Positions 266 through 59,808 of a stretch of DNA of 59,808 nucleotides are shown piece by piece; positions within the stretch are counted from its first letter, which is position 1; every line of letters begins with the position of its first letter. Under the pieces are notes generated by a model. It worked only from the letters and a program-made list of their open reading frames with translations, was not told the DNA's origin and made no database searches. The DNA lies in the NCBI GenBank assembly GCA_013820875.1, contig JACDHS010000011.1:1-59808 (forward strand). Reading direction: 5' to 3'. Made by a program: the position numbers and the translations under genes. This DNA comes from Verrucomicrobiota bacterium. Lineage in GTDB: Bacteria; Verrucomicrobiota; Verrucomicrobiia; Limisphaerales; JACDHS01.

Positions 266-603
266 ACAAAAAAAGGGATTTTTGACACCCAACAAACCTT
301 GCTGAAGATCAAAAAAGCCTTTTTGCGACCCCCGCAAGGGTTGCGGACTGCCAAAAAAGCCTTTTTGGGGAGTGCGCAAAGCTTGCTGACAGTCAAAAAA
401 CCCTTTTTCGACACCCAACAAAGCTTGCTGAGGGTCAAAAAAGGCTTTTTGCGACCTCCGCAAGGTTTGCGGACAGTCAAAAAAGCAATTTTGAGGAGTG
501 CGCAAAGGTTGCTGACAGTCAAAAAACGCTTTTTCGACACCCAACAACCTTTGCTGACTCCCCAAAATCCCTTTTTTGCCGGTGCGCAAACCCTCACGGA
601 AGC
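266..603. repeat. 42-bp tandem array 1 (eight units)
   Basis: A-tracts recur at 269, 311, 353, 395, 437, 479, 521 and about 563, exactly 42 bases apart. Each unit has an A5-6 run followed after 3-4 bases by T5, then a second dyad of the form GCAA-N3-TTGC or CCGCAA-N3-TTGCGG (perfect at 332-346 and 458-472). Three unit types (CGACACCCAACAA, GCGACCYCCGCAAGG, GGAGTGCGCAAAG) follow the order A-B-C-A-B-C-A-C', giving a 126-base higher-order period. Because 42 is divisible by three and units lack stops, long ORFs open on both strands; I treat these as by-products. The rest of 187-777 contains no gene I can support. Confidence 0.9.
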
Positions 604-683
604 ATTAAAAACTTTAAATTGAATAAGGAAATCGGAATGCTTGCACACGAAAATACTACGCCAGCCAGTTAGAATCAGACCCG

Positions 684-699
684 TGTGCCCTCGGGCACA
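684..699. repeat. Perfect inverted repeat downstream of the MBL-fold gene
   Basis: TGTGCCC, a two-base spacer, then GGGCACA. It lies about 80 bases past the stop of the - strand hydrolase gene. No T-run follows it, so a role as terminator is possible but not shown. Confidence 0.45.
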
Positions 700-777
700 G
701 CAAGGTTGAGCCATGAAATACCTGAAAGCTGTCGGCAATCTGGCATTGCTGCGTTCGGGACGGGGCGCACTCCGGCC

Positions 778-1731
778 TCAGTTCAAGACGAATGTTTCTC
801 CCACATCGCGCAGGGCAACCCGTTCCGGCTCTGCGGAAAGCGCTTCTTGAAAACGTTCGATCGGTTCCTTGAACGGCTCACGCCCCAAAGCAAATGCCTG
901 ATGATGAATCGGCAGAATGTGACGGGCACCGGCGTCGTTCGACATCTTGATCGCCTCTTCCGGTGTGCAATGGGCGCGTATCCAAGGGTTGTAGGCGCCA
1001 ATCGGCATGATCGCCAGTTCGAAAGGTCCTTTGCCGCGCTGATTGCGAAAACTGTCGGACATAGCAGTGTCGCCTCCGAAAATGATGCGCTTCCCTTCCC
1101 GGGAGATAACATAACCGTTGTAACCTCGCTGGGCGTCGTGCTGCCATCGCGCTCCCCAGTGATTCACTTCGATGCCTTCAATTTCCACATCACCGTTCTG
1201 GGTTTTCACGGTCGTCTTTTCACCCCAACCGAGTTCGTGCGGGTTTTTGAGCTTTGTGCGGGATAACAGATCCGCGGTTTTACGGGCCGTCACCACCTTT
1301 GTGTTTTCACGGAAGTTCCTTAAGGTAGGCAAATCAAAGTGGTCGAGGTGGGCATGAGACAAGAGGACGAGATCGATCGGCGGCAACTCTTCCACGGTGA
1401 GCGCCGGGGCAATCGCCCGTTTCGGCCCGACAGTTCCTATGCGCAGATCAGCGCCAACTCGTGACATTAGAACCGGGTCAGTCAGGATTTTCACTCCGTA
1501 GAAATTCACCAGGACCGTCGCGTGACCCAGCCAGGTGGCTGTCAGGGCATTGTCATTCCAGGTGCCTGGGGTTGGCTTATGATGGGGCGATGCAATTTTC
1601 TGACCGAGTTCGGCGAAGCGCTCGCGAATAAAACGCGCTGGAAAACTTTGGGATTTCGCAATCCAATAGGTTCCCAAAGTCACACCACTCAAGACAGCAA
1701 AACATCCGCTGGAAAATTTCTTTGATCTCAT
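778..1731 (-). CDS. Metallo-beta-lactamase-fold hydrolase (UlaG/NAPE-PLD-like)
   Basis: A 317-aa protein with a hydrophobic N-terminal stretch (about residues 8-27) that may be a signal anchor. The metallo-beta-lactamase signature HxHxDH is present as SHAHLDHFD, preceded by the TWLGHATVLV and LTDPVL strands typical of the UlaG/NAPE-PLD branch. Later metal-ligand regions are FGGDTAMS and LPIHHQAF. These enzymes hydrolyse phosphodiester, phosphoester or lactone bonds using two metal ions; the substrate here cannot be read from the sequence. The ATG at 1731 is supported by a GGAGG about 5 bases upstream. The gene stands alone between array 1 and the DUF1080 gene. Confidence 0.9.
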   Translation of the reverse strand: MRSKKFSSGCFAVLSGVTLGTYWIAKSQSFPARFIRERFAELGQKIASPHHKPTPGTWNDNALTATWLGHATVLVNFYGVKILTDPVLMSRVGADLRIGTVGPKRAIAPALTVEELPPIDLVLLSHAHLDHFDLPTLRNFRENTKVVTARKTADLLSRTKLKNPHELGWGEKTTVKTQNGDVEIEGIEVNHWGARWQHDAQRGYNGYVISREGKRIIFGGDTAMSDSFRNQRGKGPFELAIMPIGAYNPWIRAHCTPEEAIKMSNDAGARHILPIHHQAFALGREPFKEPIERFQEALSAEPERVALRDVGETFVLN

Positions 1732-1960
1732 TTACCTCCAAAAAGAGTTCCGAAAAGAAACTCGTGGTCAAACAGCGTGCAGGTTTTGTTCCGTTCTTGC
1801 AAACGGCCCGCAAAAGTTTCGATGCACCCCAAAATCGCCTCTCCCGGCAGTCTCCAGGCTTTACAGATGTCTCCAGACAGGACACCGCCTTTCAGCTAAA
1901 CGAACATGATTTTTGCTCTCGCGCTTGCCAAGGGAGGTCGGTCGGACTACAAAGTCACCC

Positions 1961-2647
1961 ATGAAAACACTTGCCCTATGCACGTTGATCTCGTCGCTGG
2001 CCTTTTCTGCATTCTCCCAGACTGAACCCGGCAAAGCGGTTCCAGAAAAACCCGGTAAGAAAGGTTGGATTGAACTGTTCGATGGAAAAACCCTCAGCGG
2101 CTGGAGCGCGGTGGATCCCGGTCAGTGGGAAGTGAAAGACGGGATATTGATCGGACAAGGAAATGTGAGCCACCTGTTCAGCCCGAATACCTACACGAAC
2201 ATGGAATTCAAAGCTGAAGTTCGCACCAAACCAAATGCGAATAGCGGGATGTATTTCCATGCCGAACGCGGCTCCGGTTGGCCAAAGGGTTATGAAGCGC
2301 AGGTGAACAACACTTATAAAGATCCGCAAAAAACCGGCGGCCTTTACAATTTCCATAAAATCATGGAATCACCCACCAAGGACAACGAATGGTGGACTCA
2401 ACACATTGTTGCCATCGGCAATCGCACCATCATCAAGGTGAACGATAAGGTCGTGACCGATTATGTGGATGAGAAGAATACGTTCAAGTCCGGTCACCTC
2501 GCCTTTCAACAACACGATCCGGGCAGCTATGTCGAATACCGCAACGTGATAGTGAAACGCCTTTCCAACGACGAAAAAGAAGCCTTGAAAGAAGCGAGCA
2601 AAGATCTGCCCGAACTGAAAAAGGAAAAGAAGGCGAAGAGCAAGTAA
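1961..2647 (+). CDS. Secreted DUF1080 protein (3-keto-disaccharide hydrolase domain)
   Basis: A 228-aa protein with an N-terminal signal peptide (MKTLALCTLISSLAFSAFSQ) and a single DUF1080 domain that opens with the family signature GWIELFDGKTLSGW. The fold is a concanavalin-like beta sandwich; characterised relatives hydrolyse 3-keto-glycosides, and the family is greatly expanded in Verrucomicrobia and Planctomycetes. The C-terminus is a Lys/Glu-rich tail. I chose the ATG at 1961 because it places the signal peptide at the N-terminus; an in-frame upstream start at 1913 would bury it. An AGGGAGG lies about 24 bases upstream, farther than usual. Expected in the periplasm or outside the cell. 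Confidence 0.88.
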   Translation: MKTLALCTLISSLAFSAFSQTEPGKAVPEKPGKKGWIELFDGKTLSGWSAVDPGQWEVKDGILIGQGNVSHLFSPNTYTNMEFKAEVRTKPNANSGMYFHAERGSGWPKGYEAQVNNTYKDPQKTGGLYNFHKIMESPTKDNEWWTQHIVAIGNRTIIKVNDKVVTDYVDEKNTFKSGHLAFQQHDPGSYVEYRNVIVKRLSNDEKEALKEASKDLPELKKEKKAKSK

Positions 2648-2709
2648 TCGTTTGTGCGGGTGGCGGTTCCCTACTGCTCCTCTGACGAACGCTTTTCTTT
2701 ACATCGATG

Positions 2710-2900: not shown

Positions 2901-2920
2901 TCGTTCGTTCTCGTTTTACT

Positions 2921-3991: not shown

Positions 3992-4013
3992 GATTAAGAA
4001 CCCCTAGACCCTC

Positions 4014-8773: not shown

Positions 8774-9535
8774 ATGAAACGCCCCTTGATCCTGGTTTCT
8801 CCGAGCACCGCACAAAACGGCTCTGAATTCGCTGATGCTTCCATCAGCCTTTCCAATTGTTATTTCGAGGCTGTCCTCGCCGCGGGTGGTCTCCCCGTGG
8901 CAATTCCGTGTGTGAGTTCGCGCGAGGTGATTGCTGAATATGTGAACCGGTGTGATGGAGTCCTGCTTACTGGCGGCGACGATGTGCAGACAAATATCTA
9001 CGCTCCGGATTTGCCGGCGGAACTCGCGACCAAAGCCGGGCGCGCCAAACCGATTCGGGATATTTTGGACTTACTCTTAATTGACGAAGTGTTTCGGCAG
9101 CGCAAACCGCTCCTTGCGATTTGCCGTGGTCATCAGATCCTGAATGTCGCCCTCGGCGGAACCTTGATCGTGGATATTCCAACGCAGATTCCAGGAGCAA
9201 TCGATCACCGGTGCATGGAGCGCAAAGATGAACCAGTCCACAGTGTGCAATTGACGTCAGGGTCAGATTTGTCAAAGTGCCTTGGCTGTAAGGTAATCCA
9301 GGTGAATAGCACTCATCATCAGGCAGTCGGGGAGGTCGCGGAAGCTTTTACGATTGTTGCGACGAGCGAAGATGGGGTGGTCGAAGCAATGGAATTAAAA
9401 GACAAATCCATGCTGCCGTTTTTGATCTCTGTGCAATTTCATCCAGAGCGGATGATTGATATAAACAAAAAATTTGGTAAGTTGTTTAGTAGTTTTATGC
9501 TAGTGAGCGCAGCGGAGTCTCGGAAAAACATATGA
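8774..9535 (+). CDS. Class-I glutamine-amidotransferase-like hydrolase (peptidase C26, PuuD-like)
   Basis: A 253-aa protein of the gamma-glutamyl-gamma-aminobutyrate hydrolase family. The nucleophile Cys is in LLAICRGHQILNVALGG, and the catalytic His and Glu are in SVQFHPERM; GVLLTGGDDV is the family oxyanion region. Relatives cleave gamma-glutamyl amides, for example in putrescine breakdown. The ATG at 8774 gives the usual MKRPLILVSP N-terminus; an ATG at 8729 would overlap the gene upstream. Its stop overlaps the start of the next gene (ATGA, 9532-9535), so it is probably co-translated with the NtrC-type regulator, an uncommon partner. Confidence 0.9.
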   Translation: MKRPLILVSPSTAQNGSEFADASISLSNCYFEAVLAAGGLPVAIPCVSSREVIAEYVNRCDGVLLTGGDDVQTNIYAPDLPAELATKAGRAKPIRDILDLLLIDEVFRQRKPLLAICRGHQILNVALGGTLIVDIPTQIPGAIDHRCMERKDEPVHSVQLTSGSDLSKCLGCKVIQVNSTHHQAVGEVAEAFTIVATSEDGVVEAMELKDKSMLPFLISVQFHPERMIDINKKFGKLFSSFMLVSAAESRKNI

Positions 9536-10872
9536 AAGGCAAAATTATGGTGGTGGAGGACACGGAGGAAGTTCGTGAACTCCTGAGCAAAATTCTAAAG
9601 GTCGGCGGTTACGAGCCTATCTTAAAAAGCAGCGCCGCCGAGTTGAAGGAAAGCTTCTCAGATACTCAGCCGGACATCATGTTTCTCGACCTCGTCCTGC
9701 CTGATGGCGATGGACTGGAACTCCTGCCACTCATTAAACGGCAATGGCCTGAGACCGAGGTAATCGTCCTCACCGGCAACGCCACTTTCGATGCTGCCGT
9801 CGAAGCCACCAAACGCGGCGCGTATCACTTTCAAAATAAACCGTTTGATCCCAAAGCTCTCCTGGTCCAGGTGGAACGTGCGCTCGAACACAAACGGTTA
9901 ACTGAAGAAGCCAGCAACCTACGGCAAGCGCTTACCACGATGAGCGGCACTACGTCGCCCATCTTTCAGAGTCCCTCAATGAAGAATGTGGTGCGCACCA
10001 TTGAACGTGTCGCCCCAAGCGATGTCTCCATTTTGATCACCGGCGAGAGCGGTACTGGCAAAGAAGTGATTGCTGATTTAATCCACACTTTGAGCCCACG
10101 CAACAAAGGGCCCATTATCAAGATCAACTGTGCCGCACTCCCTCGGGAATTGATCGAAAGCGAATTGTTTGGATCTGTCAAAGGCGCGTTCACTGGCGCC
10201 AATGTGGATCGTGATGGCCTTTTCCGTCAGGCTGAAGGCGGCACCCTTCTGCTGGATGAAATTTCTGAAATGCCGATCGACACGCAGAGCAAACTGCTGC
10301 GGGTTCTCCAGGAAAAGGAAGTCCGCCCAGTTGGCGGTCGAACCAGTTACAAGACGGATTGCCGGATTATTGCCGCCACCAACCGGAAGCCCGATGAGGC
10401 GATCAAGGACGGGAAATTGCGTGAAGACTTGTATTACCGCATCAGCGCCATCTCCGTTCATCTGCCCCCACTGCGCGAACGGCGCGAAGACATTTTGCCG
10501 CTTGCGAATGCGTTCCTCAGAAAATTCGCGGCGCAAGCCAACCGAAACATCACTGGTTTCAGCGAATCAGCCGGGGAAAAATTGCGCGCATTCGATTGGC
10601 CCGGAAATGTTCGCCAGTTACAGAACGAAGTGCAACGCGCCGTGCTGATGTCTGAAGGCACCCAGATTGATGTGCCGGATTTATCGATCATTGGCGCGCC
10701 CGGCCCTGAAGGTGAAGTGCAGGATTTGACTCTGATGGAAGCCATGGAACGCAACACCATCATGCAGGTCTTGAAGGAGACTGGCGGAAACAAGCTGGAG
10801 ACAGCCCGTCGCCTGGGTATCGGAAGGCAGACGCTCTACAACAAGATAAAGATCTACGGCATTGAGACGTGA
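9532..10872 (+). CDS. NtrC/AtoC-family sigma-54-dependent response regulator
   Basis: A 446-aa three-domain activator. A receiver domain (about 1-120) has the phosphoacceptor Asp in DIMFLDLVLPDGDG and Lys in NKPFDP. An AAA+ domain (about 140-375) has Walker A GESGTGKE, the sigma-54 contact loop GAFTGA and Walker B GGTLLLDEI. A Fis-type helix-turn-helix closes the protein (NKLETARRLGIGRQTLYNKIK). It would open sigma-54 promoters after phosphorylation by a kinase, but no kinase gene is adjacent, so it is an orphan. It overlaps the hydrolase gene upstream by four bases. I saw no clear -24/-12 promoter nearby. Confidence 0.95.
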   Translation: MKGKIMVVEDTEEVRELLSKILKVGGYEPILKSSAAELKESFSDTQPDIMFLDLVLPDGDGLELLPLIKRQWPETEVIVLTGNATFDAAVEATKRGAYHFQNKPFDPKALLVQVERALEHKRLTEEASNLRQALTTMSGTTSPIFQSPSMKNVVRTIERVAPSDVSILITGESGTGKEVIADLIHTLSPRNKGPIIKINCAALPRELIESELFGSVKGAFTGANVDRDGLFRQAEGGTLLLDEISEMPIDTQSKLLRVLQEKEVRPVGGRTSYKTDCRIIAATNRKPDEAIKDGKLREDLYYRISAISVHLPPLRERREDILPLANAFLRKFAAQANRNITGFSESAGEKLRAFDWPGNVRQLQNEVQRAVLMSEGTQIDVPDLSIIGAPGPEGEVQDLTLMEAMERNTIMQVLKETGGNKLETARRLGIGRQTLYNKIKIYGIET

Positions 10873-14283: not shown

Positions 14284-14505
14284 TTAACAACCTCCGACGG
14301 AGTCGCTGGGCATTAAATACATTTTGATTGGGCTTTGACGCCGTCGTAAGCGGATAAACACGTATTTAACGGCTTACGACGGCATCACTCGGCGTTAAAA
14401 CGTGTTTAACGTGCTGCGACGCGGTCGGGGGCCGTTAAAAACGTGTTTATCCGCTTACGACGGCGTCGGAGCGTGGTAAATACGTGCGGATTTTTCAGTG
14501 ACGCC
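14284..14505. repeat. 42-bp tandem array 2 (about five to six degenerate units)
   Basis: A CGACGG/TGACG core recurs at about 14295, 14336, 14378, 14417, 14458 and 14499, spacings 41, 42, 39, 41 and 41. Units contain GACGGCGTC-like dyads and a perfect CGTTAAA (14393-14399) / TTTAACG (14405-14411) stem. It occupies the divergent gap between the sensor kinase and the FN3 gene. The unit shares the core GACGGMGTCGG with array 4. Confidence 0.8.
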
Positions 14506-14546
14506 GGAAGGGGCGGATTTCTGCGTGGTGAACCATTTTTTCTCTC

Positions 14547-14573
14547 GTTTGAAGAAGATTTTTTTCTTCAAAC
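14547..14573. repeat. Perfect 10-bp inverted repeat with T-rich loop
   Basis: GTTTGAAGAA (14547-14556) and TTCTTCAAAC (14564-14573) flank a GATTTTT loop. It lies just right of array 2 and about 190 bases before the FN3 gene. It could be a regulatory hairpin in the leader of that gene. Confidence 0.45.
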
Positions 14574-14641
14574 AGGTCCAATTCTTCGTAAACGGCTTAT
14601 CCACAAGCATTAGGGACTGCGAAAATAATTTCATTTTGCAG

Positions 14642-14674
14642 GAGGGGGGGTGCAGCAGATGCCTCCCCCCCTGT
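14642..14674. repeat. G7/C7 hairpin upstream of the FN3 gene
   Basis: Seven G (14644-14650) and seven C (14665-14671) flank a 14-base loop. A perfect DnaA-box-like TTATCCACA occurs 40 bases earlier (14597-14605), alone and therefore not taken as an origin. The region 14118-14764 holds only array 2 and these hairpins; small ORFs across it are unconvincing. Confidence 0.4.
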
Positions 14675-14764
14675 GAGAAGATGTTGATGTTCGTTTGATG
14701 ATGAAATGTCGAACGGACGCGAGAACAGTCACAAAACAAAAACTGAGAAAGGTTGATTAATCAT

Positions 14765-15938: not shown

Positions 15939-18900
15939 TCATTCGACCACGTTTCGGTTGAGAATTGGATTTAATTCCTCAGCCAACTTCCGCACCAGCG
16001 GTTCGCGCACAATCGCCCCGTGGTAGCCAGGAACTTCAAAGATTTCGAGTCCACCCTGAATGAGAGTGCCCCAGCCATTGGTCGGGTCTTCATGGATCCC
16101 GACCGGTTGTTTAGTGGCGCGAAAGAGCACTGCATTTCCAGAATACGGTTTGTGACGGTAGTTGAGGCAGGACCGGTAATTTGCGGTGGCCACCTGGGTA
16201 TAGGATTTCGGCAGTTTAAAATGCCAGAGATCGCCTCCGTCATCGCCAGTCCACTTGAATTGATTTCGCAGGACGCGCGGCAAAAAGAGAAAGCGAACAT
16301 TCTGTTTTAGCTTTTTCATTTTCCGCTGCCAGCGCACTGGCAACTTCGCGAGCTTCTCGCGCACGTAACCCGGCCACTCACGGGCTTGCATCATGCGCAA
16401 ATTGTTGATGTGCATTTCCCAACGAGCCATGGACTTGAGCAACCGGTGTCGCGAGATGCCAAGGCTCGGCAATGGCGTAGGATAATCTTTTCCATAGGAA
16501 TCGAAGAAGGCGAGCAACGCCACCTGCTCACCGGACGCATGGAGTTGCTGCGCCATTTCGTACGCTACGATGCCGCCAAAGGAAGAACCACCGATTGAAT
16601 AGGGTCCATTCGGTTGGATCCGTTTGATTTCCTGAACGTAACGAGTCGCCATTTCCTCAATCGTTTTCAGCCACGCTTCTTTGCCATCTAGACCTTGCGC
16701 CTGGATTCCGTAGAACGGTTGGTCGGGATCAAGGTAACTTGCCATGTGCGAATATTCGAGGACAGCGCCTCCGACTCCATGAACACAGAAGAATGGAGTT
16801 CGGGCGCCAGTCGGTTTAATCGGCACAATAAGATTGGAACGACCGCTCTGCCCGGTCTCAATGGCCACTTCGCCTCCACCCACGACGGCGGCAAGCTTTT
16901 CGACGGTCGGCGCTTCAAACAATGTGGCGAGTGGGATTTCTTTGCCCGTAAGCTTTTTGATTTTTGCGAACACGGTGAGGGCCAGCAAGGAATGCCCGCC
17001 CAGTTTGAAGAAATCATCCTGCACACCCACCTTATCGATGCCTAACACCTGCTGCCATATCTCAACCAGCGCCTTCTCAGTTTCATTTCTTGGGGCAAGG
17101 TAATTGGAGGAAATCTGTGGTCGGGCGTATTTCTTCCCCTTCTCTTTGACGACAATTTCTTCCCCTTTGGAATGGGGCGTAGAATGACGTTCTATCTGCA
17201 CGCTGACCTCTTCAGGTGAGACGATGATTTGTGGACTCGATTGGTTGAGTATCCGCGAGAATGCCTCTGCGCCTTCGCCCGGTCGGATGCCCATTTTCAA
17301 AGACCGCGCCCGTTCAGCCTGTAATTCCTGGGGCACTTTCGTGTTCACTGCCATGCCGACTTCCTGCCATGCATACCAGTTGATGGAAATGAAGTTTTCC
17401 GAACGATGCTTCCGAGCGTAAGCATCCAGGAAGGCGTTGGCCGCGCAATAGTCCACCTGCCCTACCCCGCCGAGAAAAGAGTTGATCGTCGAACAAAGAA
17501 CAACGAAATCCGGCTTCTCCCCTGCGAGAGCATTCTTGAGAGCAATGGTGCCATGGACTTTTCCGGAGAGGACGCGCTCAGCCGCCTGGCGAGTTTTGAT
17601 TTGCATGATGCCGCCCCCGGCAACACCTGCCGCGTGAATCACTCCATTGATTGCGCCGAAGCGGGACCGGACTTGATCTATGGCACGCTTCATCTCCTGC
17701 TCATTGGTGACATCGGCATTGATGACCAGTACTTCGCTGCCGAGACGTTCGAGCGTTTCGATCTTGCGGAGTTTAAGAGTGGTTGGATCCTGAGCATCGT
17801 GTTGCTCAATCCATTGTTTCCATTCGGCTCTGCCAGGAAGAGGTTGCCGAGCGATCAATACCAAACTCGCGCCAACGGTTTGCGCAAGGTGTTCGGCGAG
17901 CGCAAGGCCAATTCCACCTAAGCCACCGGTAATTAAATAAACGCCGTTCTTGCGAAGCGCTGGTTTCCCAGCCCGTTCGGCTGGAACGTGTGTTGGTTCA
18001 AAGCATTCGACCCAACGATGAGCGCCGCGATGCGCTACAACGCTGTCGGTTGTGTTCGCAAAGATTTCGTCCAGCAACAGTTCATTAAACTTCTCCGCTT
18101 TCGCTGCCGACTCCGGCAAGACCACGTCAATGCTTGAGCATTGGATGTTTTCGAACTCCTGCGAAACGACACGGCACGGACCGAGAACAAGCGACTTTTC
18201 AGGCACGCACGTTTCATCGCCAGTCACTTCCTGTAGCTCATTCGAAATCACCTTGAGTTCGATCTGCAATTCCGATGCTTGCTCGCCCAGGGTTTGGGCG
18301 AGATACAGCAAACTGTAGAAACTCAGATCGAGCGATGAATCCACACCGCTACCATTCCTGTTCCTATTCTTCCGCGCATCCGGTGTGACAGACCAGAGGT
18401 GAATGATCTTCGTGGGGAGTCGGCCCAGAAAGGATAAGGATTCGAAAAGCGTTCGAAAATCTTTTGGCTCACCCGGATTGATCACATAGGTATCGTTGCT
18501 CTTCTTCTCATATTCTTCTCCGATGGAAACGACGGCTGCGAGTTGCCCAAGCTCTTTCAACTGGCGCGCCAAATTTGCTCCAAGGCCGCAGGGATCAATA
18601 AACAACAACCATGAGACACGCTTTTCAGCCGACTTCTCGGCAACTGTATGATCGATGGCGCGACGTTTCCACGATGGGACATAAAACCATTTCTCAAACT
18701 CCTGCCGATGCGACTGGCTCTTTGTGGAAAGCGAAACCTCCTTCGACTCTTCCACCCAATATCTTTGCCGTTCGAAAGGATACGTCGGCAAGGGCACACG
18801 TCGCCGTTGTTCCTTCGAGTAAAAACCGCTCCAATCAATCTCGACACCGAGCAGCCAGAGTTGGCCGAGCGTCCCAATGATGTGTTGTTCGTCAGATATT

Positions 18901-21900
18901 TGATCGGTGGGATGGCCCAACGATGGGAAAGCTCTTTGGGGCGCGCCAGAGCTTGTATGCAGCTTTGTTAATGAGGTGAGCGTTTGTCCCGGCCCCGCTT
19001 CGATGAACACGCGGTCCGGCTCTTTAAGCAGCTCCTGGATGCCCTGCGAAAACCGCACCGTATTTCGGAGATGTTTTGCCCAGTAGGCGGGATCCGTTGC
19101 CTGCTTTGGTTCAATCCATGTGCCAGTGAGATTCGAGATATAGGGCAACTTTGGGGCATTCAACTGCACCTGCGTCACTCGCCGGGTAAATGCCTCCAGG
19201 ATGGGTTCCATCATTGGAGAATGAAACGCATGAGAGGTGTGCAAACGCTTGCAGTTAAGCCCCTCGCCGGTGAGTCGTCCGGCGAGCTTTTCGATGGCTT
19301 CATTTTCACCCGAGACAACATTCAAACAGGGACCATTGCTCGCGGCGAGTGCGAGGTGATCATTGAGAAAGGGTTGAATGTTCTTTTCAGAAAGCGGCAC
19401 CACCAGCATGGATCCGCCCGGCAGCCTTTGCATAAGCCGACCCCGTTCAGCAACCAACCGAAGCGCGTCTTCGAGACTGAAAACGCCAGACAGGCAAGCC
19501 GCAACATATTCGCCAATACTATGCCCGAGCATCGCTTCAGGCTGGATGCCCCAACTGATCCATAGTTTGGCCAAAGCGTATTCAATCGCAAAGAGAGCGG
19601 GCTGAGCGAAAGCGGTTTGATTGAGTTGCCGTGTGGCGGCTTCGGCGTCTTCGTCATGAAACAACAGGACGCGGATATCACAGCCGATTTCCGTTCTGAG
19701 AATTTCCGCACAAGCATCAAACGTTTCGCGGAAAAGCTCTTCCTGCTGATAGATATCCCACGCCATCCTGAAATGTTGCGCGCCTTGCCCCGAGAAAAGG
19801 AAAACGATCTTCCGGTCACGGGGTTCTTCCATCGCGAAACAAAGCTTTTCAGGATCTTCGAGAACACCAATCGTTTCCTCAATGTTTCTCCCCACGGCGA
19901 AGCAACGCTGTTCAAAATGTTTACGACCGCTTTGTAGCGTGTGGGCCACATCCGGAAGATTGGTTTCTGGATTCTCCTTTAAATGATTGGCCAGATTTCC
20001 AACCAGTGACGACAAAGCTGAATCTGTTTTGGAAGATAACAAAAATAGCTGATGCGGTCTGGATTGCTCACACGCCTGATAGGACGGCGCTTCTTCAAGG
20101 ACAAGATGAGCGTTTGTTCCACCAATCCCGAACGCGCTCACACCCGCGCGCCGTGGAGCACCATTTGTTTTCCAATCCTGAAGCGTGGCATTGACGTAGA
20201 AGGGACTGTTTTCAAAGTCGATTTTTGGATTCGGCTGCTCGAAATGTAAGCTGGGCGGGATTGCTTTATGTCGCAGCGCGAGGACGGTTTTGATTAATCC
20301 CGTCACCCCGGCTGCAACATCGAGATGCCCGAGGTTACTTTTGACAGAACCAACAGCGCAAAATTGTTTCTTTTCAGTTTTCTCGCGGAAGGCCTGCGTA
20401 AGCGCGGCAATCTCAATCGGATCGCCCATGGGTGTTCCTGTTCCGTGCGCTTCGATATAGGTGATGGTTTCCGGATCCACCTGCGCCGCTGCCTGCGCCA
20501 TTTTCACCACTTCGGCCTGGCCTGAAATACTTGGCGCGGTGTAACCAACCTTCTCAGCGCCGTCATTATTGATCGCACCGCCCAGGATGATTGCCTGAAT
20601 CGTATCGCCATCTTCCAAGGCGTCGGAAAGTCGTTTCAACGCAACGATACCAACTCCCATCCCGGAGACTGTTCCCTGCGCTTCTGCATCGAAGGCGCGG
20701 CAGTGTCCATCTGGTGAAAGGATCATTCCCTCCTGGAAAAGATAGCCGCGGCGTTGCGGTTGATTGGCGCACACGCCACCAGCGAGGGCCATATCGCATT
20801 CTCCAGCCAGCAGGCTTTGACACGCGAGTTGCACGGCGACAAGCGATGTGGAACAAGCTGTTTGAACGGCGAAACTCGGTCCGCGTAAATTTAATTTGTA
20901 GGAAACGCGAGTCGCGAGGAAGTCTTTGTCATTCCCGATCATCGCTTGATAGAGCTCGTTGACCGCCATCTCGCTTCGTTTGCCGAATCGCGCAGCATAA
21001 GTGTTCATGCTCGATCCGGCGTAAACCCCAATTGCCCCCGGAAAATTATCCGGATTGCAGCCCGCATTCTCCAAAGCCTCCCACGCAGCTTCGAGGAAGA
21101 GGCGATGCTGCGGATCCAGGATTTCAGCTTCCTTAGGATTGAAACCAAAGAAACCTGCGTCGAACTGATCCAAGTTTTCCAAAGCAGTTCCTGCTTTGAC
21201 ATAGTTTGGATCCTGCAGTTCCTCAGCGGAAACGCCCTGGCTCAGTAAATCTTCATCCCGCCAGGGAAAAATGCCTTCAACCCCGTCCCGCAGATTACGC
21301 CAAAACTCTTCCACATTGTTTGCCCCAGGAAAACGACCGGCCATTCCTACGATCGCAATGCGCTCGGGTTGCCCCTCCTTGGAGTCACGCTGCCTGGTCT
21401 GCCTTTTCGAATTCAACTTTTCATCGGTAACGTCCTCCGCAAAGAATCCGGCCAAAGAATCAATCGTGGAATGCCGAAACATTTCGACCATCGGGATTTC
21501 TTTGGCGAACGTTTGGCTTAATTGATTATGCACCCTGGCGACCAGCAACGAGTGCCCACCCAGATCGAAAAAGTTGTCATGAACCCCCACCTTGGATAAG
21601 CCGAGAGCCTCCTGCCAAATCTGCGCGATCGTCTGTTCAATCTGATTACGCGGCGGAATCCGTTTGGAATCACTATCAGACTGCGCAGCATCGGGTATCG
21701 GCAAAGCACGCCGATCCACCTTCCCATTCGGTGTGAGCGGCAAAGCGTCGAGCCAGACAAACACCGAGGGAATCATGAACTCAGGAAGCTGCCGTCCGAT
21801 GAACTGCTTGATTTCTGAGGTCTCTGGAGTGGATTGCGATTTCGGCACGGCATAAGCAATCAGGCGTTTGTTGCCGGGAGTTGTTTCCCGCGCAACCACC

Positions 21901-25082: not shown

Positions 25083-28000
25083 ATGCAGTTAGCTAATGCA
25101 CTGCTTACAATGATAAAAGCGAAAGTTGTTCTATTATTGTCAGCTTTGGCGCTCGCCTCTCCGGTGCGTGCCGCGGAATTTTACGTGGCTCCTGACGGTA
25201 AGTCCACGAACACGGGAACTATATCGAGTCCCTGGGACTTACAAACGGCATTGAATCATCCCGCCACACTGAAACCGGGAGACACGGTCTGGCTCCGCAA
25301 CGGTATTCACCGGATGGACAATCGGATCACCAAGTTCACCAGTCGCCTGGCAGGAACATCGACTGCCCCAATAACGGTTCGGCAATATCCCGGTGAACGC
25401 GCCACGATTGACGGCAATATTTTGCAGTCCACTGGTGGTTGGGTGAATTATTGGGGTTTTGAAATTTATAACTCCAACACCAATCGTTACACCTCACAAA
25501 CTGGCCCATGGCCCACCACATGGTGGGTCAAGTATGATGGTAAGGACGTTGATCTCTGTGTCAGCGGCTTTGATCTACAGGCTCCAAATGTCAAACTGAT
25601 CAACCTGGTCGTCCGCGATTCGATTGGCGGCGGTTTCGGCATCAGTAAGACAGCGCAGAACACCGAGATGTATGGCTGTTTGTCTTACTACAATGGTTGG
25701 CTGGCCCCGGATCGCGCTCATGGCCATGGATTGTACGGACAAAACGCAGCTCCCTACACCAAGAACATCATGGAAAATCTGTTCTACGGGAACCTCGCTC
25801 TAGGTCTTCAAGCTACCGGGAATGGCCCTGAACCAATCGCAGATAACTTCAACCTGGAAGGCAATGCCCTGTTTCAGAATGGTATTCTCGCCACTAAACA
25901 CCAGGCCAATATTCTCGTTGGAGCGTGGCAGGGTCGCGCCCAAAACCCGCGCATTATCGGCAACATGGTTTATGACACGATGGGTAGCGGCTCGGATTCC
26001 TACATCGGTTACAGCGGCGGAACGGATAACGCTGTGGTGCAGAACAATTACTTCGGCACCAGCGCCATGTTCTCCACCGCGAACTTTAATATGACCGTGT
26101 CCGGAAACCTGTTCGGCGGCGGAATAATCAATCTCGACAAAACCAAGTATCCGAATAACACCTTTCTCTCAGCAAAGCCGACTCAGAACGCGATCTTCGT
26201 GCGCCCAAACAAGTATGAAGCGGGCCGCGGCAATATCGTCATTTACAACTGGCAGAAGCTGAACACAATTTCAGTTGATCCTTCGGCGGCTGGGTTGAAG
26301 TCCGGCGACGTTTATGAATTGCGTAACGCGCAGAACTTCTACGGCGATGTCATCACCGGCACTTACAATGGTGGTTCCATTTCCATTCCAATGACCGGTC
26401 GCACAGTTGCGAAACCGCAAGGAGCAAACTTCACAACGCCTGCATCCACGTTCCCGGAATTCGGTGTATTCGTGATCATGAAGAAAGCTGGCAGCGCACC
26501 GCCGCCAGTGAACACCGCCCCCGTTGTTTCTTCCATCGCAAATCAAACGATCCAGGAAGATTCGGCGACTGCACCAATCTCATTCACTGTTAGCGACGCA
26601 GAAACTGCTGCCGCAAACCTGAGTGTTACCGCAAGCTCTTCCAATCAGACGCTCGTTCCGAACGCAAACATCGCATTAGGCGGAAGCGGTGGAAATCGCA
26701 CCATCACCGTCACACCTGCAAAGGAACAATCCGGTTCAGCTACGATTACAATCTTCGTTAGCGACGGCATTAATGTGGTGAACAGAAGCTTTGCTCTGAC
26801 GGTTACGGCTATCAACCGCGCTCCGCAGATATCCGCAATTGCAAATCAAACCATCAAGGAGAATACCAGCGCGGGGCCGATCGGCTTCACAGTAAGTGAC
26901 CGCGAAACCTCGGCAGCAAACCTATCGGTCACCGGCACCTCCTCTAACACGACGCTTGTTCCAAACGGCAATATCGTCTTTGGCGGCAGCGGTTCGAATC
27001 GCACGATTACAGTAACGCCAGCGGCAAATCAATTCGGCACAGCCACAATTACCGTTCGAGTGAGTGATGGTGTGAATATCACAAGCCAGAGCTTTGCTTT
27101 GATTGTTGAGGCCGTGAACTCGGCTCCTGTCATTTCAAGTATCGGCAACCAGAGCATTCCGGAAGATGGAACCACGAGCGCAATTGGTTTCACCGTGAGC
27201 GACCGCGAAACTGCCGCTGCCAACCTGGCAGTCACTGCAAGCTCCGCAAATCAGACGCTTGTTCCGAATGCAAACATTACGTTGGGCGGAAGCGGCAGCA
27301 ACCGCACCATCACAGTTAAACCGGCAGCCGATCAGTTCGGCACTGTGGCAATTACAGTTGCGGTCAGTGATGGCGCGCTCACAGCAACCACCAGCTTCAC
27401 CCTGGTGGTCACCGCAGTGAACGATGCCCCGACGATCTCGAGCATCCCCGATCAAACCACCCAGCAAGATACTGCAACCGGGCAGATTCCTTTTGTGATC
27501 GGCGATATTGATACTCCGATTGCAAACCTGAGTCTGGCGGGCGGTTCTTCGAATCCAACGCTTGTTCCGAATGCCAACATTGTATTCGGCGGCAGCGGAA
27601 CGAACCGAACGGTTAAGGTCACCCCCGCAAGCGGACAATCCGGCAGCGCCGTCATCACCGTCTCCGTCAACGACGGCGCGGCCAGCGCGAGCAAGAGCTT
27701 CAACCTGACCGTGGACAAGATCGACGACGGCGGCACCAATACCACGGACAACGTGTATCTCGGAATTGAAGCCGAAGACGCTGTTATCGTTTCGCCGATG
27801 ACCGTGGTGACGGACACGAAAGTTCCCAGCCGCCGTTATGTGCATACGCCGCTCGCGAACCAGGGCACAGCGACTTACACCGTCGAGGTTCCCAAGACAG
27901 GCACCTACATCATCTGGAGCAAAATCCTGGGTGAAACGTTTGCCAGCGATTCGTTCTTCGTTGCCGTCAACGGAGAGGAAGACGTCTTTGATGCAGCGGA

Positions 28001-31092: not shown

Positions 31093-31124
31093 GCCCGTGC
31101 ATACATCGCCTGACCGCGATAGCT

Positions 31125-31155
31125 TTCAATCCTAAGCGATCCACTCAGGATTGAA
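31125..31155. repeat. Palindrome flanking array 3, left copy
   Basis: TTCAATCCTAAG (31125-31136) and CTCAGGATTGAA (31144-31155) match with one mismatch around a 7-base spacer. The core ATCCTAAGYGATCYACTYAG is shared with the copy at 31761-31787 on the other side of array 3, in the same orientation. Confidence 0.7.
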
Positions 31156-31242
31156 GTTTTAACCCCTCAAAACGTTGCCTCTCCCAACCGGAGAATGGCC
31201 AAACAAGCGGGCTAGCGTGACAACAATCTTCAATCCCTGCGA

Positions 31243-31620: not shown

Positions 31621-31760
31621 AGGAAATAAACCCTTATAATTCCCGCTTTTAATCCGGAGGAACGCGGTTTTTTGGTGCGCGAAGGCAATTTTCCCGAATT
31701 TGGGCCGAGAAAATTCTGTTCGCAAAAGGGATTTTCCTCGTGAGGTCGGGACACTGGTTT

Positions 31761-31787
31761 GTATCCTAAGTGATCTACTTAGGATAC
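31761..31787. repeat. Palindrome flanking array 3, right copy
   Basis: GTATCCTAAGT (31761-31771) and ACTTAGGATAC (31777-31787) are perfect 11-bp arms around GATCT. Related to 31125-31155. Confidence 0.75.
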
Positions 31788-31799
31788 TGGGATTGAAGG

Positions 31800-31890
31800 A
31801 GCAGGCCGGGAGGACTGCTCTACGTAACGTAGCCGTCCTCGGCTGCGGTTCACTGGGTGTCTCGCCCAGTGTTCAGGACTGAGACGCACT
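31800..31890. repeat. Dispersed-repeat-like element with three small dyads
   Basis: CTACGT-A-ACGTAG (31820-31832) sits inside AGGAC...GTCCT arms, and CACTGGG (31851-31857) pairs with CCCAGTG (31865-31871). It lies about 60 bases beyond the 3' end of the - strand glycosyltransferase gene and could end that transcript. Confidence 0.5.
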
Positions 31891-33033: not shown

Positions 33034-33034
33034 A

Positions 33035-41227: not shown

Positions 41228-41377
41228 ACGTTGCTACGGAGCGCGGCTGTGTCCGAAGGATCAGCCGCAGCGCGTGAGATTGTTCGAGTGTCATAGAAGG
41301 CTCGACAGCGCAACGTTCCAGCCTTGAGCGCTACGGCTGATGCTTCGCACACAACCGCGCTCCGAACGTAGCAACGT
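41228..41377. mobile_element. MITE-like palindromic element, copy 2
   Basis: The left arm 41228-41272 and right arm 41329-41377 are imperfect reverse complements over about 45 bases, sharing ACGTTGCTAC ends, around a 56-base centre. Within it CGGAGCGCGG (41237-41246) and CCGCGCTCCG (41355-41364) match the ends of the element at 15729-15841, and 41237-41272 is identical to the reverse complement of 15806-15841. It fills the 222-base gap between the fusion gene and a GT4 gene. Confidence 0.75.
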
Positions 41378-42561
41378 CAAGGTGCGCCCCTCCCGCTGGG
41401 AGAGGGGATTCGCGTCTTGAGTTGCCAATGTTCAATCATCACCTGGCGCAATGCCTCCCGAAGTCCTTCCAAAGAATAACGCTGCGCCCATTCCGCTGCG
41501 CAGCGAGCCATCGCCCGGGCCTCTTCGGGTTGATCAGCGATTTGCTGCAATGCTTTTCCTAATGCAACAGGATCGCGCGGTGGAACGAGAAAGCCGCGTC
41601 CCTCTCCCAACATCTGCGGCATCATCCCGCGTTCCGTGCCGATGCAGACGCAACCGAAGGCCATTCCTTCCGCGACCGCTTTCGGCCATCCCTCTATATT
41701 CGATGCAAGCACGAGCACATCCGCTTCTTCGTATTGGCTCAACACATCATTAAAGCTCAGACCGCCGAGGAATTTCACTTGATGACCGACCCGCAATTCA
41801 GCAGCCAGATTGCGCAACTTTTCTTCCTCAGGCCCTTCTCCCACCACGACACATTCGACCGCTCGATTCGGAACATTCAGCGTTGCGACTGCCCGGAGAA
41901 GAACGTCCACATTCTTCGAAGCGGAAAGGCGTCCGACGAACAGGATTCGGTAAACATCTGGATCGCGCGGACGAACCGCTGCGGATCTTGCCTGGCCAAT
42001 TTGTTCCTCCGTCAACATCGAGGTAAAAAAAGGAACCACATTCGCCGGTTGGTCCGGCCACCGACCATAAACTGTCACCGGACTGTTCCACCACTTCGAG
42101 CGAAGCAGGAACCGTTGGAATCGCCACGCAGACGGTTCTCCCGCATACGGCAACCATTGCGTGGCATATTTTGCGATGAGCTTTCGACTGAAAAGCGGCC
42201 CCAGCAGAAGCGTGACAAGTCCAAGATCACACGGGCACCGGGTGTGAATGGCATCGGCACCGCGCATGTATTTTGCCACCTGGAAAAGAATCCCTGGAAG
42301 TGCAAAGAGTTGGAGAAACTTTGCCTTCAAGCCATCGCCACCCGCTTCTTCCACCGGCACTACCCGGACGTTGCGTTGTGCGAACAGACTACAATCTGCC
42401 GGAGGGACTCCCCTTCTTAAGGTTCCGGCCACTGTAACGTCGCCAAACAATTCGGCCCAAACATCGATCTCCCTCGCATACGGTGTGTAAGCGTAATAGC
42501 GCCCTTGATGCAAATAATGATCCACCCGCGTCACAACCAACAGTTTTCTGGGGAAAATCAT
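41377..42561 (-). CDS. Family 4 glycosyltransferase
   Basis: A 394-aa GT-B enzyme. The donor domain shows ILFVGRLSASKNVDVLL, VVVGEGPEEEKL and the signature NIEGWPKAVAEGMAFGCVCIG. The last ten or so residues (IPSPSGRGAP) are encoded by a palindromic repeat at 41387-41407, so the natural C-terminus was probably overwritten or extended by repeat DNA. The gene stands apart from its neighbours: a palindromic element lies downstream and array 4 upstream, so it may have its own promoter. The sugar donor is unknown. Confidence 0.92.
   Translation of the reverse strand: MIFPRKLLVVTRVDHYLHQGRYYAYTPYAREIDVWAELFGDVTVAGTLRRGVPPADCSLFAQRNVRVVPVEEAGGDGLKAKFLQLFALPGILFQVAKYMRGADAIHTRCPCDLGLVTLLLGPLFSRKLIAKYATQWLPYAGEPSAWRFQRFLLRSKWWNSPVTVYGRWPDQPANVVPFFTSMLTEEQIGQARSAAVRPRDPDVYRILFVGRLSASKNVDVLLRAVATLNVPNRAVECVVVGEGPEEEKLRNLAAELRVGHQVKFLGGLSFNDVLSQYEEADVLVLASNIEGWPKAVAEGMAFGCVCIGTERGMMPQMLGEGRGFLVPPRDPVALGKALQQIADQPEEARAMARCAAEWAQRYSLEGLREALRQVMIEHWQLKTRIPSPSGRGAP
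41387..41407. terminator. GC-rich hairpin at the 3' end of the GT4 gene
   Basis: CCCCTCCC-GCT-GGGAGAGGGG forms a near-perfect hairpin overlapping the last codons of the GT4 gene. It resembles a dispersed repeat that often serves as a transcript end. No T-run follows. Confidence 0.55.
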
Positions 42562-42564: not shown

Positions 42565-42836
42565 ACGATAACGTTATTCCTGCGAATTGAGCGCGTCAGA
42601 GTCGCCAGAACGTTATTCCTGCCATTTGACGGAGTCAGGCGATGCCTGAGAACGTTATTCCTGCCGTTTGACGGAGTCGGACGGTGCCTGAGAACGTTAT
42701 TCCTGCCGTTTGACGGAGTCGGACAGTGCCTGAGAACGTTATTCCTGCCGTTTGACGGAGTCAGACGATGCCTGAGAACGTTATTCCTGCCGTTTGACGG
42801 AGTCGGACGATGCCTGAGTACGTTATTCCTGCCAAT
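42565..42836. repeat. 42-bp tandem array 4 (about seven units)
   Basis: ACGTTATTCCTGC recurs at 42571, 42610, 42652, 42694, 42736, 42778 and 42820; the first spacing is 39, all others 42. Each unit holds CCGT-TTG-ACGG and GAC-GGA-GTC dyads plus an AACGTT palindrome. It fills the 323-base gap 42562-42884 between the GT4 gene and the Wzy/ligase gene. The 123-aa ORF reading through it (repeating FLPFDGV) is not taken as a gene. Confidence 0.93.
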
Positions 42837-42884: not shown

Positions 42885-44369
42885 TTACCGGCCCTCCCGT
42901 TTACCCTCGCGCACTTGTGAACTGGGAGTGCACAGATGCATGTTATCAGGCCCTCTAACGCCATCAATCCGGGCGACGGAATACGCCGTACCAAGAAGAG
43001 CCATTCCAAGCAAAATACCCGAATTGATATCATTTCCGGAAACCGAAACCATCGTCAGCGCATAAGCGAAAAAGCATGCCATTGGGAAAAGCCCGTGTTC
43101 ACGGACACGGAACCCTATTTTCGAAAAAATCATTAGCAGCCACGCCAGAAAGCTGATCAATCCAACCAAGCCGACCTCGACCAGTAGTTGCATAAACAAA
43201 GAATGGAGCGCCACCCTTTTTCCCACGGCATACTGCACCCCCGGAACTTCCGGAGAATATTTGGCATACATCTCCGGCCCACGCCCGGGACCGTGTCCAT
43301 GGATGATGCTGTTGATCGATCGTGTGAATGCATATTCTGACACCATCCATTGATCTGATCGTCCGCTGGTCTTCTTGCGCACAGATTGACCCTCACCAAA
43401 TGTGCGTTCCCAACCTTTCTTCAAAGCAACACCGTAGGGACTCATCAAAACGATGCCTATGCCGATAATGCCTACGATGCAAAGCGACACCAACCGCGTC
43501 CTTTGCTGTTTTCCGAAGAGGAGCAGAATTAAAACTCCAACAGCAGCAACCAGCCACGATGCCCGGGATGTTGTCAGCGCCAGAAGAACTGCAGTTGGCG
43601 CCAGCATCAACCAACGGCACATTGGCTTTTCCTGGAGGTGAAGCCAGCGCCCGCGATCAAACATCAGTGCCAACAAACCGAACGCGAGAGGGAGACCTAG
43701 TTGTCCGGGATTTCCAAGCAGACGTCCTTCAACCGCAATAATGCCAAGTCGATCAGAAGTTCCCATTTGAGGAATCATGGCCAATCCCACCAGCCACGCT
43801 GAAATGATGGTTCCAGTCAGCGCCACCCCCAGCAGGAGACGATTGCGGCTCAATAAAAGAACGCACAGAACCGTGAATGCCAGTTCGAACAGGCGCAGGT
43901 TGATTGCGTAATCGCGGGTGTTGTAGAGGCTCAGGGTATAGTAAATGCCAACCCATATCACCACTCCCCAAAACAAACCAAACTGGCGCAACGTCTGCGA
44001 GAAACGATTGGACGCTGAAAAAAAGTAAAATCCGAGAAGCACAAGGAACATCGCGATGATCACATTGTAGAAAACAAAGCTGCGCAGCAGATTCAAGAAA
44101 GGCGCCGCAGCCAGGATCAGGCAAAGAAGTTCATCTCGCCTCCCCATCAGCATCGCTCGCAACAGGACGAGGCCAAACAAAAGCCAAAAACATTTCCCAG
44201 CCCATTCTGCGCGGCCAGTGGCCAGGAGAGCGGCCGCAGGGAGAGTGCAAAACAAAAGTTGGAGCAGGAAAGCTCGCAGTGAAAAGCGATATACGTAAAC
44301 CGGTTTACTTACCTGGGGAAGACGCGCCCCTGAATGCAGCGGCCTGACAGTTGATGCATAACTGTTCAT
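42885..44369 (-). CDS. O-antigen ligase / polymerase family membrane protein (Wzy-like)
   Basis: A 494-aa integral membrane protein with about 11-12 hydrophobic segments and a larger periplasmic loop around residues 310-385. That loop holds the Wzy_C-type region: TSGRSDQWMVSEYAF, HGHGPGRGPEMY and ALHSLFMQLLVEVGLVG. Proteins of this family polymerise flipped repeat units (Wzy) or ligate them to a lipid carrier (WaaL). In this locus, with a flippase and a BY-kinase, the polymerase role is the more likely. Its ATG overlaps the stop of the GT2 gene upstream (ATGA, 44366-44369). Confidence 0.9.
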   Translation of the reverse strand: MNSYASTVRPLHSGARLPQVSKPVYVYRFSLRAFLLQLLFCTLPAAALLATGRAEWAGKCFWLLFGLVLLRAMLMGRRDELLCLILAAAPFLNLLRSFVFYNVIIAMFLVLLGFYFFSASNRFSQTLRQFGLFWGVVIWVGIYYTLSLYNTRDYAINLRLFELAFTVLCVLLLSRNRLLLGVALTGTIISAWLVGLAMIPQMGTSDRLGIIAVEGRLLGNPGQLGLPLAFGLLALMFDRGRWLHLQEKPMCRWLMLAPTAVLLALTTSRASWLVAAVGVLILLLFGKQQRTRLVSLCIVGIIGIGIVLMSPYGVALKKGWERTFGEGQSVRKKTSGRSDQWMVSEYAFTRSINSIIHGHGPGRGPEMYAKYSPEVPGVQYAVGKRVALHSLFMQLLVEVGLVGLISFLAWLLMIFSKIGFRVREHGLFPMACFFAYALTMVSVSGNDINSGILLGMALLGTAYSVARIDGVRGPDNMHLCTPSSQVREGKREGR

Positions 44370-58929: not shown

Positions 58930-59097
58930 ACTACGAGTAAGATTAAGAGCACGCCTCACTGTCTGAGAATGAGCGGAACCGGCTGCCAGCCATTTTCGGC
59001 GGCAACCTGCCGAATGTTCAGACGACGCAATTATCGGGGTGTTGCGTGACTCGGCGGGCTATATAGCAGTTCGTTCCACCCACCCGAATGCCCTCGT

Positions 59098-59688
59098 TCA
59101 CGACGAGCGATTCGGCAGAAGAGTTCTAAAAATAATTTTTAAATCTTCCCAGAGATTGGCCCGGCGCGCGTATTCCAGGTTCAAGAGAATTTTTTGAGGC
59201 ACACAGTAATTCAGATAAAAGTTTTCGACGTTGGATGCCGATTTCAAAAGCATTTCTTCATTTCGGAACGCAAGTGTGGCGAGATCGGTAATGCCTGGTT
59301 TCAATTCCAACACTTGTCGCTGCTCCGGCGAATAGAGATCCACATATTTTGGCAACTCAGGGCGGGGCCCCACGAAACTCATCTCGCCTTTCAGCACGTT
59401 CAGCAATTGCGGCAATTCGTCCATCTTGCTTTTGCGAAGAAAACGGCCAATTCCTGTCACCCTGGGATCGCCATCCTTTGTAACGCCCGGCCCCCGGCTC
59501 TCCGCCTCCAGGATCATCGTTCTAAACTTCAGAATTTGAAACGGCCGGCCCTGGAACCCGATCCGGCGCTGCCGGAAAAAAGCCGGTCCTCCATCATAAA
59601 GCGTAACGCTGGCGGCAATAACCAGAAGGAGCGGACCTAGTATGAACAAGCCGGCCAGCGAAAAAACAAAATCGAAAATGCGTTTCAC
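59098..59688 (-). CDS. Initiating sugar-phosphate transferase (PglC/WcaJ-type, polyprenyl-phosphate)
   Basis: A 196-aa monotopic phosphoglycosyl transferase. A re-entrant membrane helix follows the start ([19 protein letters not shown]). Then [45 protein letters not shown] and the [12 protein letters not shown] segment are the catalytic signature; the Asp-Glu pair of KMDELPQ is the expected active site. It moves a sugar phosphate, probably a UDP-diNAcBac/QuiNAc-type sugar made by the neighbouring dehydratase, onto undecaprenyl phosphate to begin each repeat. The frame is open to 59784, but that stretch is repeat DNA (array 5 and a palindrome), so I prefer the GTG at 59688. Confidence 0.9.
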
Positions 59689-59709
59689 AGTTTTTTTTGG
59701 GGAACCAGG

Positions 59710-59743
59710 CTGTCCTACCGGCTTCGCCGCCAGAGTAGGACAG
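59710..59743. repeat. Inverted repeat upstream of the initiating transferase
   Basis: CTGTCCTAC (59710-59718) and GTAGGACAG (59735-59743) are perfect 9-bp arms with a GC-rich loop containing GGCTTCGCC. It lies between the preferred GTG start and array 5 and looks like another dispersed palindrome. Confidence 0.6.
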
Positions 59744-59747
59744 CGCA

Positions 59748-59808
59748 GATCATCCGGAAACCGTCCGCACACGTTCCAGGCCATTTTCGGATCATCCGGA
59801 AACCGTCC
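59748..59808. repeat. 42-bp tandem array 5 (start only, cut by window edge)
   Basis: Bases 59748-59766 recur exactly at 59790-59808, an interval of 42. On the reverse strand the unit contains TGTGCGGACG, GTTTCCG and AAAATGG in the same order as array 3 units (TGTGCGGACG-TC-GTTTCCG ... AAAATGG). The array is therefore homologous to array 3 in opposite orientation. The number of units beyond the edge is unknown. Confidence 0.75.

Follow-up and report, generated by a model that had tools for sequence, protein, structure and literature searches.

Intergenic tandem arrays of unlike sequence with a common 41–43 bp unit in a Verrucomicrobiota genome

The Verrucomicrobiota draft genome G000 (5.70 Mb, 239 contigs, 52% GC) carries a large class of intergenic tandem arrays that are unlike in sequence and alike in unit length. 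The stretch analysed here, called the window throughout, is its contig C167 (59,808 bp), which contains five such arrays. A reading made from the letters of the window (the sequence-only reading) had described these five as unlike sequences with a single period of 42 bp. Tandem Repeats Finder (TRF) and lag scans confirm that the arrays are real, with arrays 1, 3 and 4 at 42 bp, array 2 degenerate at 40–42 bp, and array 5 truncated because the contig ends there. The five array types (A, array 2, D, array 4 and E) have no mutual match at E ≤ 1e-3, and the elements that bear types D and E share one end. The claim that unlike sequences hold one length proved true genome-wide and in a second genus; the part that did not stand is the restriction to 42 bp, as the class spans 41–43 bp. 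At least one family, E, was spread by small mobile elements. We propose that the arrays belong to elements resembling miniature inverted-repeat transposable elements (MITEs) or pneumococcal BOX elements, whose internal units stay at four helical turns, a length that leaves bends and dyads on one face of the DNA, and we give this explanation about an even chance of being right.

A class of arrays with one period

Two samples of G000 establish the period. The first comprises 20 stretches plus the window (385.5 kb) and yielded 34 TRF groups at a score of at least 50, 20 of which have periods of 40–43, 82, 83, 125 or 126 bp; it is biased upward because five of the 20 stretches were chosen on contigs with matches to array 3. 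The second, 376 kb drawn mostly from other places (two stretches hold known family G matches), gave 22 groups at a score of at least 60. Seventeen of these have periods of 41, 42, 43, 82 or 84 bp, one has a period of 164 bp (4 × 41), and four have other periods. Scaled by hand, 17 arrays per 376 kb correspond to about 250 arrays in 5.7 Mb, four of the 17 touching contig ends. Among the 39 genomes searched, the sole other member of the same family is G001 (RYN_621), which belongs to another genus; 217 kb of it produced 15 TRF groups, nine of them at 41, 42, 82 or 123 bp. The survey of tandem repeats in this genome and its relatives had been suggested as a test that a broad spread of unit lengths would decide against the claim, and the peak at 41–43 bp held. 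The kinship of these genomes is seen in an NtrC-like protein encoded in the window (9532–10872), which shares 82% identity with its counterpart in the metagenome-assembled genome (MAG) RYN_621, 80% in RYN_625 (G016), and 68–71% with those of a number of MAGs labelled Limisphaerales, Pedosphaera or Verrucomicrobia. G000 would accordingly belong to the Verrucomicrobia, close to Pedosphaera.

The detailed comparison covered 30 representative arrays, 21 of them from G000 and nine from G001. They were picked for a TRF period of 40–43 bp or a multiple, and the unbiased period figures are those of the genome samples. Of the 435 possible pairs only two, F/L021a and J/O, show a match at E ≤ 1e-3, and among lags of 20 to 69 the best is 41 bp in 16 arrays, 42 in ten and 43 in four. 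Since most arrays repeat at 41 bp, and four at 43 bp, coding repeats and the keeping of a reading frame are ruled out as the reason for the length, and with them the earlier suggestion that 42 matters as a multiple of three. CRISPR (clustered regularly interspaced short palindromic repeats) arrays are likewise ruled out: the units abut, their spacing equals the unit length, and they lack unique spacers. Within families the spacing of neighbouring units (gaps of at least 100 bp excluded) is strikingly constant, at 42 bp for 103/103 spacings in family D, 93/93 in E and 66/67 in A, and at 41 bp for 26/26 in G. Family C is looser, with 17 spacings of 41 bp, 27 of 42, five of 43 and a further ten of 83–86.

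Nearly all arrays lie between genes, as had been stated for those of the window. Of 29 arrays in the first G000 sample and the G001 sample, with open reading frames (ORFs) called by length, 22 are between ORFs, six are at sequence edges and one, in G001, is inside a possibly spurious 921-bp frame. The neighbouring genes are tandem in 11 cases, divergent in four and convergent in one in G000 (four edges), and tandem, divergent and convergent in two cases each in G001 (two edges, one inside the frame). This distribution of orientations among the 29 arrays resembles background, and we see no clear bias.

About 1.1 Mb sampled from other relatives contained no such array: 277 kb from eleven genomes belonging to the same order, 320 kb from 23 named verrucomicrobial loci (6 kb of which are G001 itself), and 549 kb from ten members of the order, of which four rank with the closest relatives by NtrC protein (9 kb of G036 are common to this last set and the earlier ones). 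In 940 kb from 57 loci of other groups, the sole period near 40 was a low-complexity 39. Because none was seen in these relatives and other groups, each genome being sampled in part, the class seems confined to this family.

Dispersed elements that carry the arrays

Matches to array 3 number 31 in G000, and the 38 relatives searched yielded none. The other families searched occur in G000 at between at least one place (L021a) and at least about nineteen (E), and none occurs in G001; the G000 counts are minima, 40 of 96 and 40 of 87 candidates having been scored. Copies of an element have common ends outside the array, which gives the BOX-like architecture of end, tandem module and end.

Family E provides the clearest case. 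Its element measures 549–676 bp between 18-bp terminal inverted repeats, with CCTNAAAACGGCAGTTAA at both ends in five copies (those with two ends located, from 13 family E loci). A 5-bp target site duplication is perfect in four of the five and fails in L097. Inverted ends, target duplication, and a short element in many copies are the features by which MITEs are recognised, and family E was thus spread by small mobile elements. The family E terminus, allowing up to two mismatches, occurs 104 times in G000 against two control matches; a slightly wider pattern with one mismatch occurs 98 times in G000, never in the control, G001 or G016, and once in G034. With up to three mismatches, the terminus is also found next to certain copies of families D, G, H and L021a. 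Family D has two flank subtypes, and the right end of one is the left end of E in reverse. Families A, C and D have conserved ends that lack clear inverted repeats or target duplications, and mobility is therefore demonstrated for E and presumed for the other families. A single terminus for all families was considered and rejected, as the regions near copies of A and of C each contain just one match, with three mismatches, and the window and G001 contain none.

Candidate movers of the elements were also sought. No partner insertion sequence with family E ends was found among 20 terminus-bearing stretches. The profile PF13701, which we take to represent IS1380-type transposases and hence a candidate mover, has one partial match in G000. 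A link to the Y1 transposases known as RAYTs (REP-associated tyrosine transposases) was rejected, since matches to PF01797 number seven in G000, three in G001, none in G016 and 14 in G034 and do not track the arrays; no arrays were found in 56 kb of G034 despite its 14 matches.

Several observations concern the copies themselves. Array 3 matches run up to the end of a contig at 13 of their 31 places (e.g., C19:1, C36:1, C64:4 and C185:1), and many family E terminus copies lie about 100 bp from one; arrays and elements are therefore under-assembled in G000. L011, a relative of array 3, joins the left flank of one D subtype to the right flank of the other, either as a recombinant or through mis-assembly. 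In L223, L231 and L238, a variant terminus of the CCTAAATCCGGCAGTTCA type lies near copies of the family E terminus and perhaps marks another element family.

Unit length, DNA shape and competing explanations

The sequence-only reading had remarked that 42 bp is four helical turns. Three lines of evidence back this idea: rigid family E units beside flanks that carry insertions and deletions (indels), an A/T rhythm of ∼10.5 bp, and raised predicted bend. In pairwise alignments, the flanks of family E (nine left, six right) contain 280 substitutions and 100 gaps. The array units of the same nine loci, compared ungapped, contain 1261 substitutions in 11,802 positions, and their lack of indels rests on the constant 42-bp spacing noted above. 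The pairs are non-independent, and differences in copy number are excluded from the gaps; the contrast between flanks and arrays is large despite this non-independence.

Short inverted repeats are concentrated in the arrays. The density of 6-bp stems with loops of at most 5 is 10.1 per kb in the arrays of G000 and 19.2 in those of G001, compared with 2.7 and 2.6 per kb in other intergenic DNA. Permutation of columns reduces the inverted repeats of 21 arrays from 81 to 8.5, and 12 of the 21 exceed the 95th percentile of their own null. In eight held-out families the corresponding numbers are 36 and 2.6, with stems in five of the eight. Eighteen of the 30 representative arrays match their own reverse complement.

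A/T content within the unit follows the helical turn. The fourth harmonic of the unit (10.25–10.75 bp) has a mean power of 0.144 in 22 arrays compared with 0.054 in 2811 intergenic control segments (z 7.5; 6.8 in G000, 3.8 in G001 and 7.7 for all 30 arrays). The first harmonic is also raised in G000 and the third in G001. In the eight held-out families the fourth harmonic, at 0.099 (p 0.022), is the sole raised harmonic with p < 0.05. It outranks every other harmonic in 12 of 30 families, as against 11% of controls. Single units exceed dinucleotide shuffles in the same measure (0.099 vs 0.057, t 2.7). A/T patches thus recur at about 10.5 bp, the spacing by which phased curved DNA is recognised. 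Predicted bend per 84 bp is 58.6 in the 22 arrays and 56.2 in the held-out families, compared with 31.6 in 1235 control windows, and it lies above the array's own permuted mean in 20 of 22 arrays and seven of eight held-out ones. Relative to dinucleotide-shuffled units repeated at the same period, bend rises from 48.2 to 60.4 (19 of 22 arrays). When unit length is changed in the model, the summed bend is kept only from about −1 to +2 bp, matching the 41–43 bp band, a tolerance that would apply to any bent unit so repeated. Inverted repeats, A/T rhythm and predicted bend recur across unlike families, including the eight held-out ones, and by this model many arrays look built to bend DNA.

We propose that the arrays are the cores of many small dispersed element families with the plan end–(41–43 bp unit)n–end. 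A transposase would act on the element ends and copy the elements to new intergenic sites, as the ends and duplications of E indicate and as may hold for the rest. Near-identical units and varying copy number suggest that units multiply and homogenise by unequal recombination or slippage. The unit would be held at 41–43 bp as four helical turns, which the phasing supports: A/T patches placed once per turn would let bends sum, and short inverted repeats would put dyads on the same side of the DNA in each unit. Arrays that drift out of phase would be lost, presumably through selection. The resulting geometry would most likely serve binding and bending by a dimeric protein of the nucleoid or transposition type, which is a guess.

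Several results count against this explanation. Inverted repeats are not above their own null in nine of 21 arrays. Dyads lie half a unit apart in just nine of 22 arrays (null 3.8) and their autocorrelation peak at 20–21 bp is weak, so that we do not claim paired dyads at a strict half-unit distance as a general rule. Covariation of stems inside units is slight, with no convincing pairs. Under the strictest control, dinucleotide shuffling of the units, the held-out families alone are significant neither in the single-unit A/T harmonic (0.080 vs 0.052, t 1.4) nor in bend (56.9 vs 49.7, 6/8, t 1.5). The bend of arrays I, K and g136 does not exceed the control mean of 31.6, and just 15 of 30 arrays exceed the control 90th percentile; the bend model, which uses a wedge table, is crude. 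Inverted ends with target duplications are shown for family E alone, the E terminus was not found in G001 or in the window, and no autonomous transposase was found among the 20 terminus-bearing stretches or with the PF13701 profile on G000.

A rival account, which we consider somewhat unlikely, invokes shared descent only: one ancient element with units of about 42 bp whose sequences diverged until no likeness was left while the length was inherited and the array had no function. The element end common to D and E, the terminus bordered by some copies of D, E, G, H and L021a, and the weak similarities of F with L021a and J with O all speak for common ancestry. Neutral arrays should nonetheless accumulate indels, yet those of family E keep every spacing while their flanks do not, and descent does not predict a 10.5-bp rhythm or raised inverted repeats in unlike families. 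Alternatively, the copying process itself could set the length: hairpins at a preferred spacing would prompt slippage or template switching, with no selection on shape. Strong inverted repeats would suit such a process, as would the higher-order periods of 82, 123 and 126 bp, which imply unit-wise duplication; but we know of no preference of polymerase slippage for 41–43 bp, and inverted repeats are weak in D, array 4, O, Q and R, which still hold length. We regard this account as decidedly improbable.

The arrays might instead work as structured RNA, their transcripts forming rows of hairpins that influence nearby genes. On average they fold more stably than shuffles (mean z −3.6 and −3.5 on the two strands), and BOX elements are predicted to fold as RNA (PMC3049150). 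However, six of the 22 between-ORF arrays sit between divergent genes, and g44, g136 and array 4 do not fold. With both strands folding alike and no Rfam family matching the window at gathering scores, we consider an RNA role less likely and put its probability very low. An assembly artefact, which the array-3 places at contig ends could suggest, is the most improbable of these accounts, and by our estimate next to negligible: the flanks of the array-3 places taken together are of many kinds, 101 of their 123 units are distinct, and the same class appears in the independent assembly G001. Array copy numbers in G000 may all the same be collapsed.

A bolder reading would make the arrays a lineage-specific architectural code, in which many mobile-element families of unrelated sequence share a four-turn dyad unit because a single host protein reads shape (bend and dyad spacing) rather than sequence. 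We think this unlikely. Were it true, a few hundred intergenic sites would be packed, insulated or marked by a nucleoid system spread by transposition.

The window and related systems

The five arrays and the elements around two of them are listed in Table 1.

Table 1. Arrays and array-bearing elements in the window
Feature	Position	Strand	Description
Array 1 (family A)	266–603	.	42-bp units, 126-bp higher-order period; TRF 279–558, lag scan
Family A element around array 1	216–618	.	Extent aligning to other genome copies; differs by copy
Array 2	14284–14505	.	Degenerate 40–42 bp units with GACGNNGTC-like dyads; TRF, lag scan
Array 3 (family D)	31243–31620	+	Nine 42-bp units; 31 matching places in G000
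Family D subtype-1 element around array 3	31103–31847	+	Stretch conserved in other copies; ends differ by copy; coordinates converted by hand from locus positions 1361–2105
Array 4	42565–42836	.	42-bp units; TRF 42607–42833, 94% matches
Array 5	59748–59808	.	First 1.5 units of an E-type array, cut at contig end

In array 1, the TRF period of 126 bp (3 × 42) is stronger than that of 42. Array 2 received a weak TRF call (14355–14469, period 40/41), only lags 81 and 122 rose above threshold in the lag scan, and one near copy (93%) lies at C157. TRF places array 3 at 31244–31608 with period 42 and 95% matches. Array 4 occupies most of the gap between two same-strand genes (41377–42561 and 42885–44369) and has distant copies at C130, C61 and C21. 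Array 5 is matched at 93% by the array in L314, over 61 bases, and at 82% by family E in L027, over 56.

Other features adjoin the arrays. Strong stem-loops lie beside array 2 at 14540–14680 (TTTGAAGAAGA...TCTTCAAA, and a G-run opposite a C-run). Beside array 3, at 30946–31092, is a second small element of ∼147 bp with 18-bp inverted ends (GCATCTTGACACTGCCCC ... GGGGCAGTGTCAAGATGC), and related letters occur in the flank of L096. Arrays 3, 4 and 5 lie inside a long gene run (29246–59784), several genes of which are of polysaccharide type; those scanned include glycosyltransferases, an O-antigen ligase domain, a sugar transferase, and a carbamoyltransferase joined to a GDSL/SGNH domain. Elsewhere, the window encodes a 2929-aa hybrid protein of the nonribosomal peptide synthetase–polyketide synthase type (15939–24728, − strand), with condensation, AMP-binding, ketosynthase, acyltransferase, ketoreductase and thioesterase domains, and a 303-bp coding repeat (26527–27708) within a 1368-aa protein with Big_9 and cadherin-like domains.

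Several known systems resemble the arrays in part. Long tandemly repeated repetitive (LTRR) sequences of cyanobacteria and mycobacterial interspersed repetitive units (MIRU) are dispersed minisatellites, sequence families each with its own unit length, and like the present arrays they are tandem repeats found between genes at many sites. Intrinsically curved DNA with phased A-tracts is comparable in shape, as here too A/T patches recur about once per turn and predicted bend is raised; we know of no case in which such DNA forms hundreds of dispersed arrays of a single length. In Verrucomicrobia, we found no report of such arrays in the literature within reach, which excluded most subscription papers and all preprints. 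Methylacidiphilum SolV is reported to have 54 short tandem repeats (PMC4210602).

The sequence-only reading had known of no described system of this kind, and here the published record corrects it, with MITEs that contain internal minisatellites (PMC4596501) and pneumococcal BOX elements (PMC3049150) as close precedents. In Porphyromonas gingivalis, the MITE BrickBuilt bears a minisatellite of 23-nt units, and the tandem repeats of the 464/PgRS elements measure 41 nt; the two have similar ends and unlike units (PMC4596501). Like the elements here, both are small, intergenic and MITE-like, with inverted ends and an internal tandem array. The 41-nt repeat of 464/PgRS has the unit length of most arrays in our set. 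However, P. gingivalis has two element types, one with a 23-nt unit, whereas at least 19 families were sampled here, and the accessible portion of that account notes no helical phasing (PMC4596501). In BOX elements of Streptococcus pneumoniae, variable tandem boxB modules stand between boxA and boxC at dispersed sites (PMC3049150). The likeness is one of architecture, two ends around a variable tandem array; the pneumococcus has one family of boxB modules, in contrast to the many families here. Repetitive extragenic palindromes (REPs), which are marked by GTAG or CGTC tags and in many cases linked with RAYT transposases, resemble the arrays, together with BIMEs (bacterial interspersed mosaic elements) and REPINs, in being short, extragenic, palindromic, numerous and often clustered (PMC3733652). 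Unlike those elements as there described, the families here have only length in common, and RAYT counts do not follow them.

The kind of element is thus known; the apparent novelty lies in how many unlike families share one helical length within a single genome, and in the evidence for phasing. The printed cases of minisatellites inside bacterial MITEs, to the extent that their text was available, concern one or two element types per genome. Many unlike families in one genome, and others in a second genus, keep one length close to four helical turns, accompanied by an A/T rhythm, predicted bend and inverted repeats; this makes it possible to test, in mobile intergenic DNA, whether selection acts on shape and not on sequence. 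The 41-nt repeats of Porphyromonas suggest that this length may recur across phyla.

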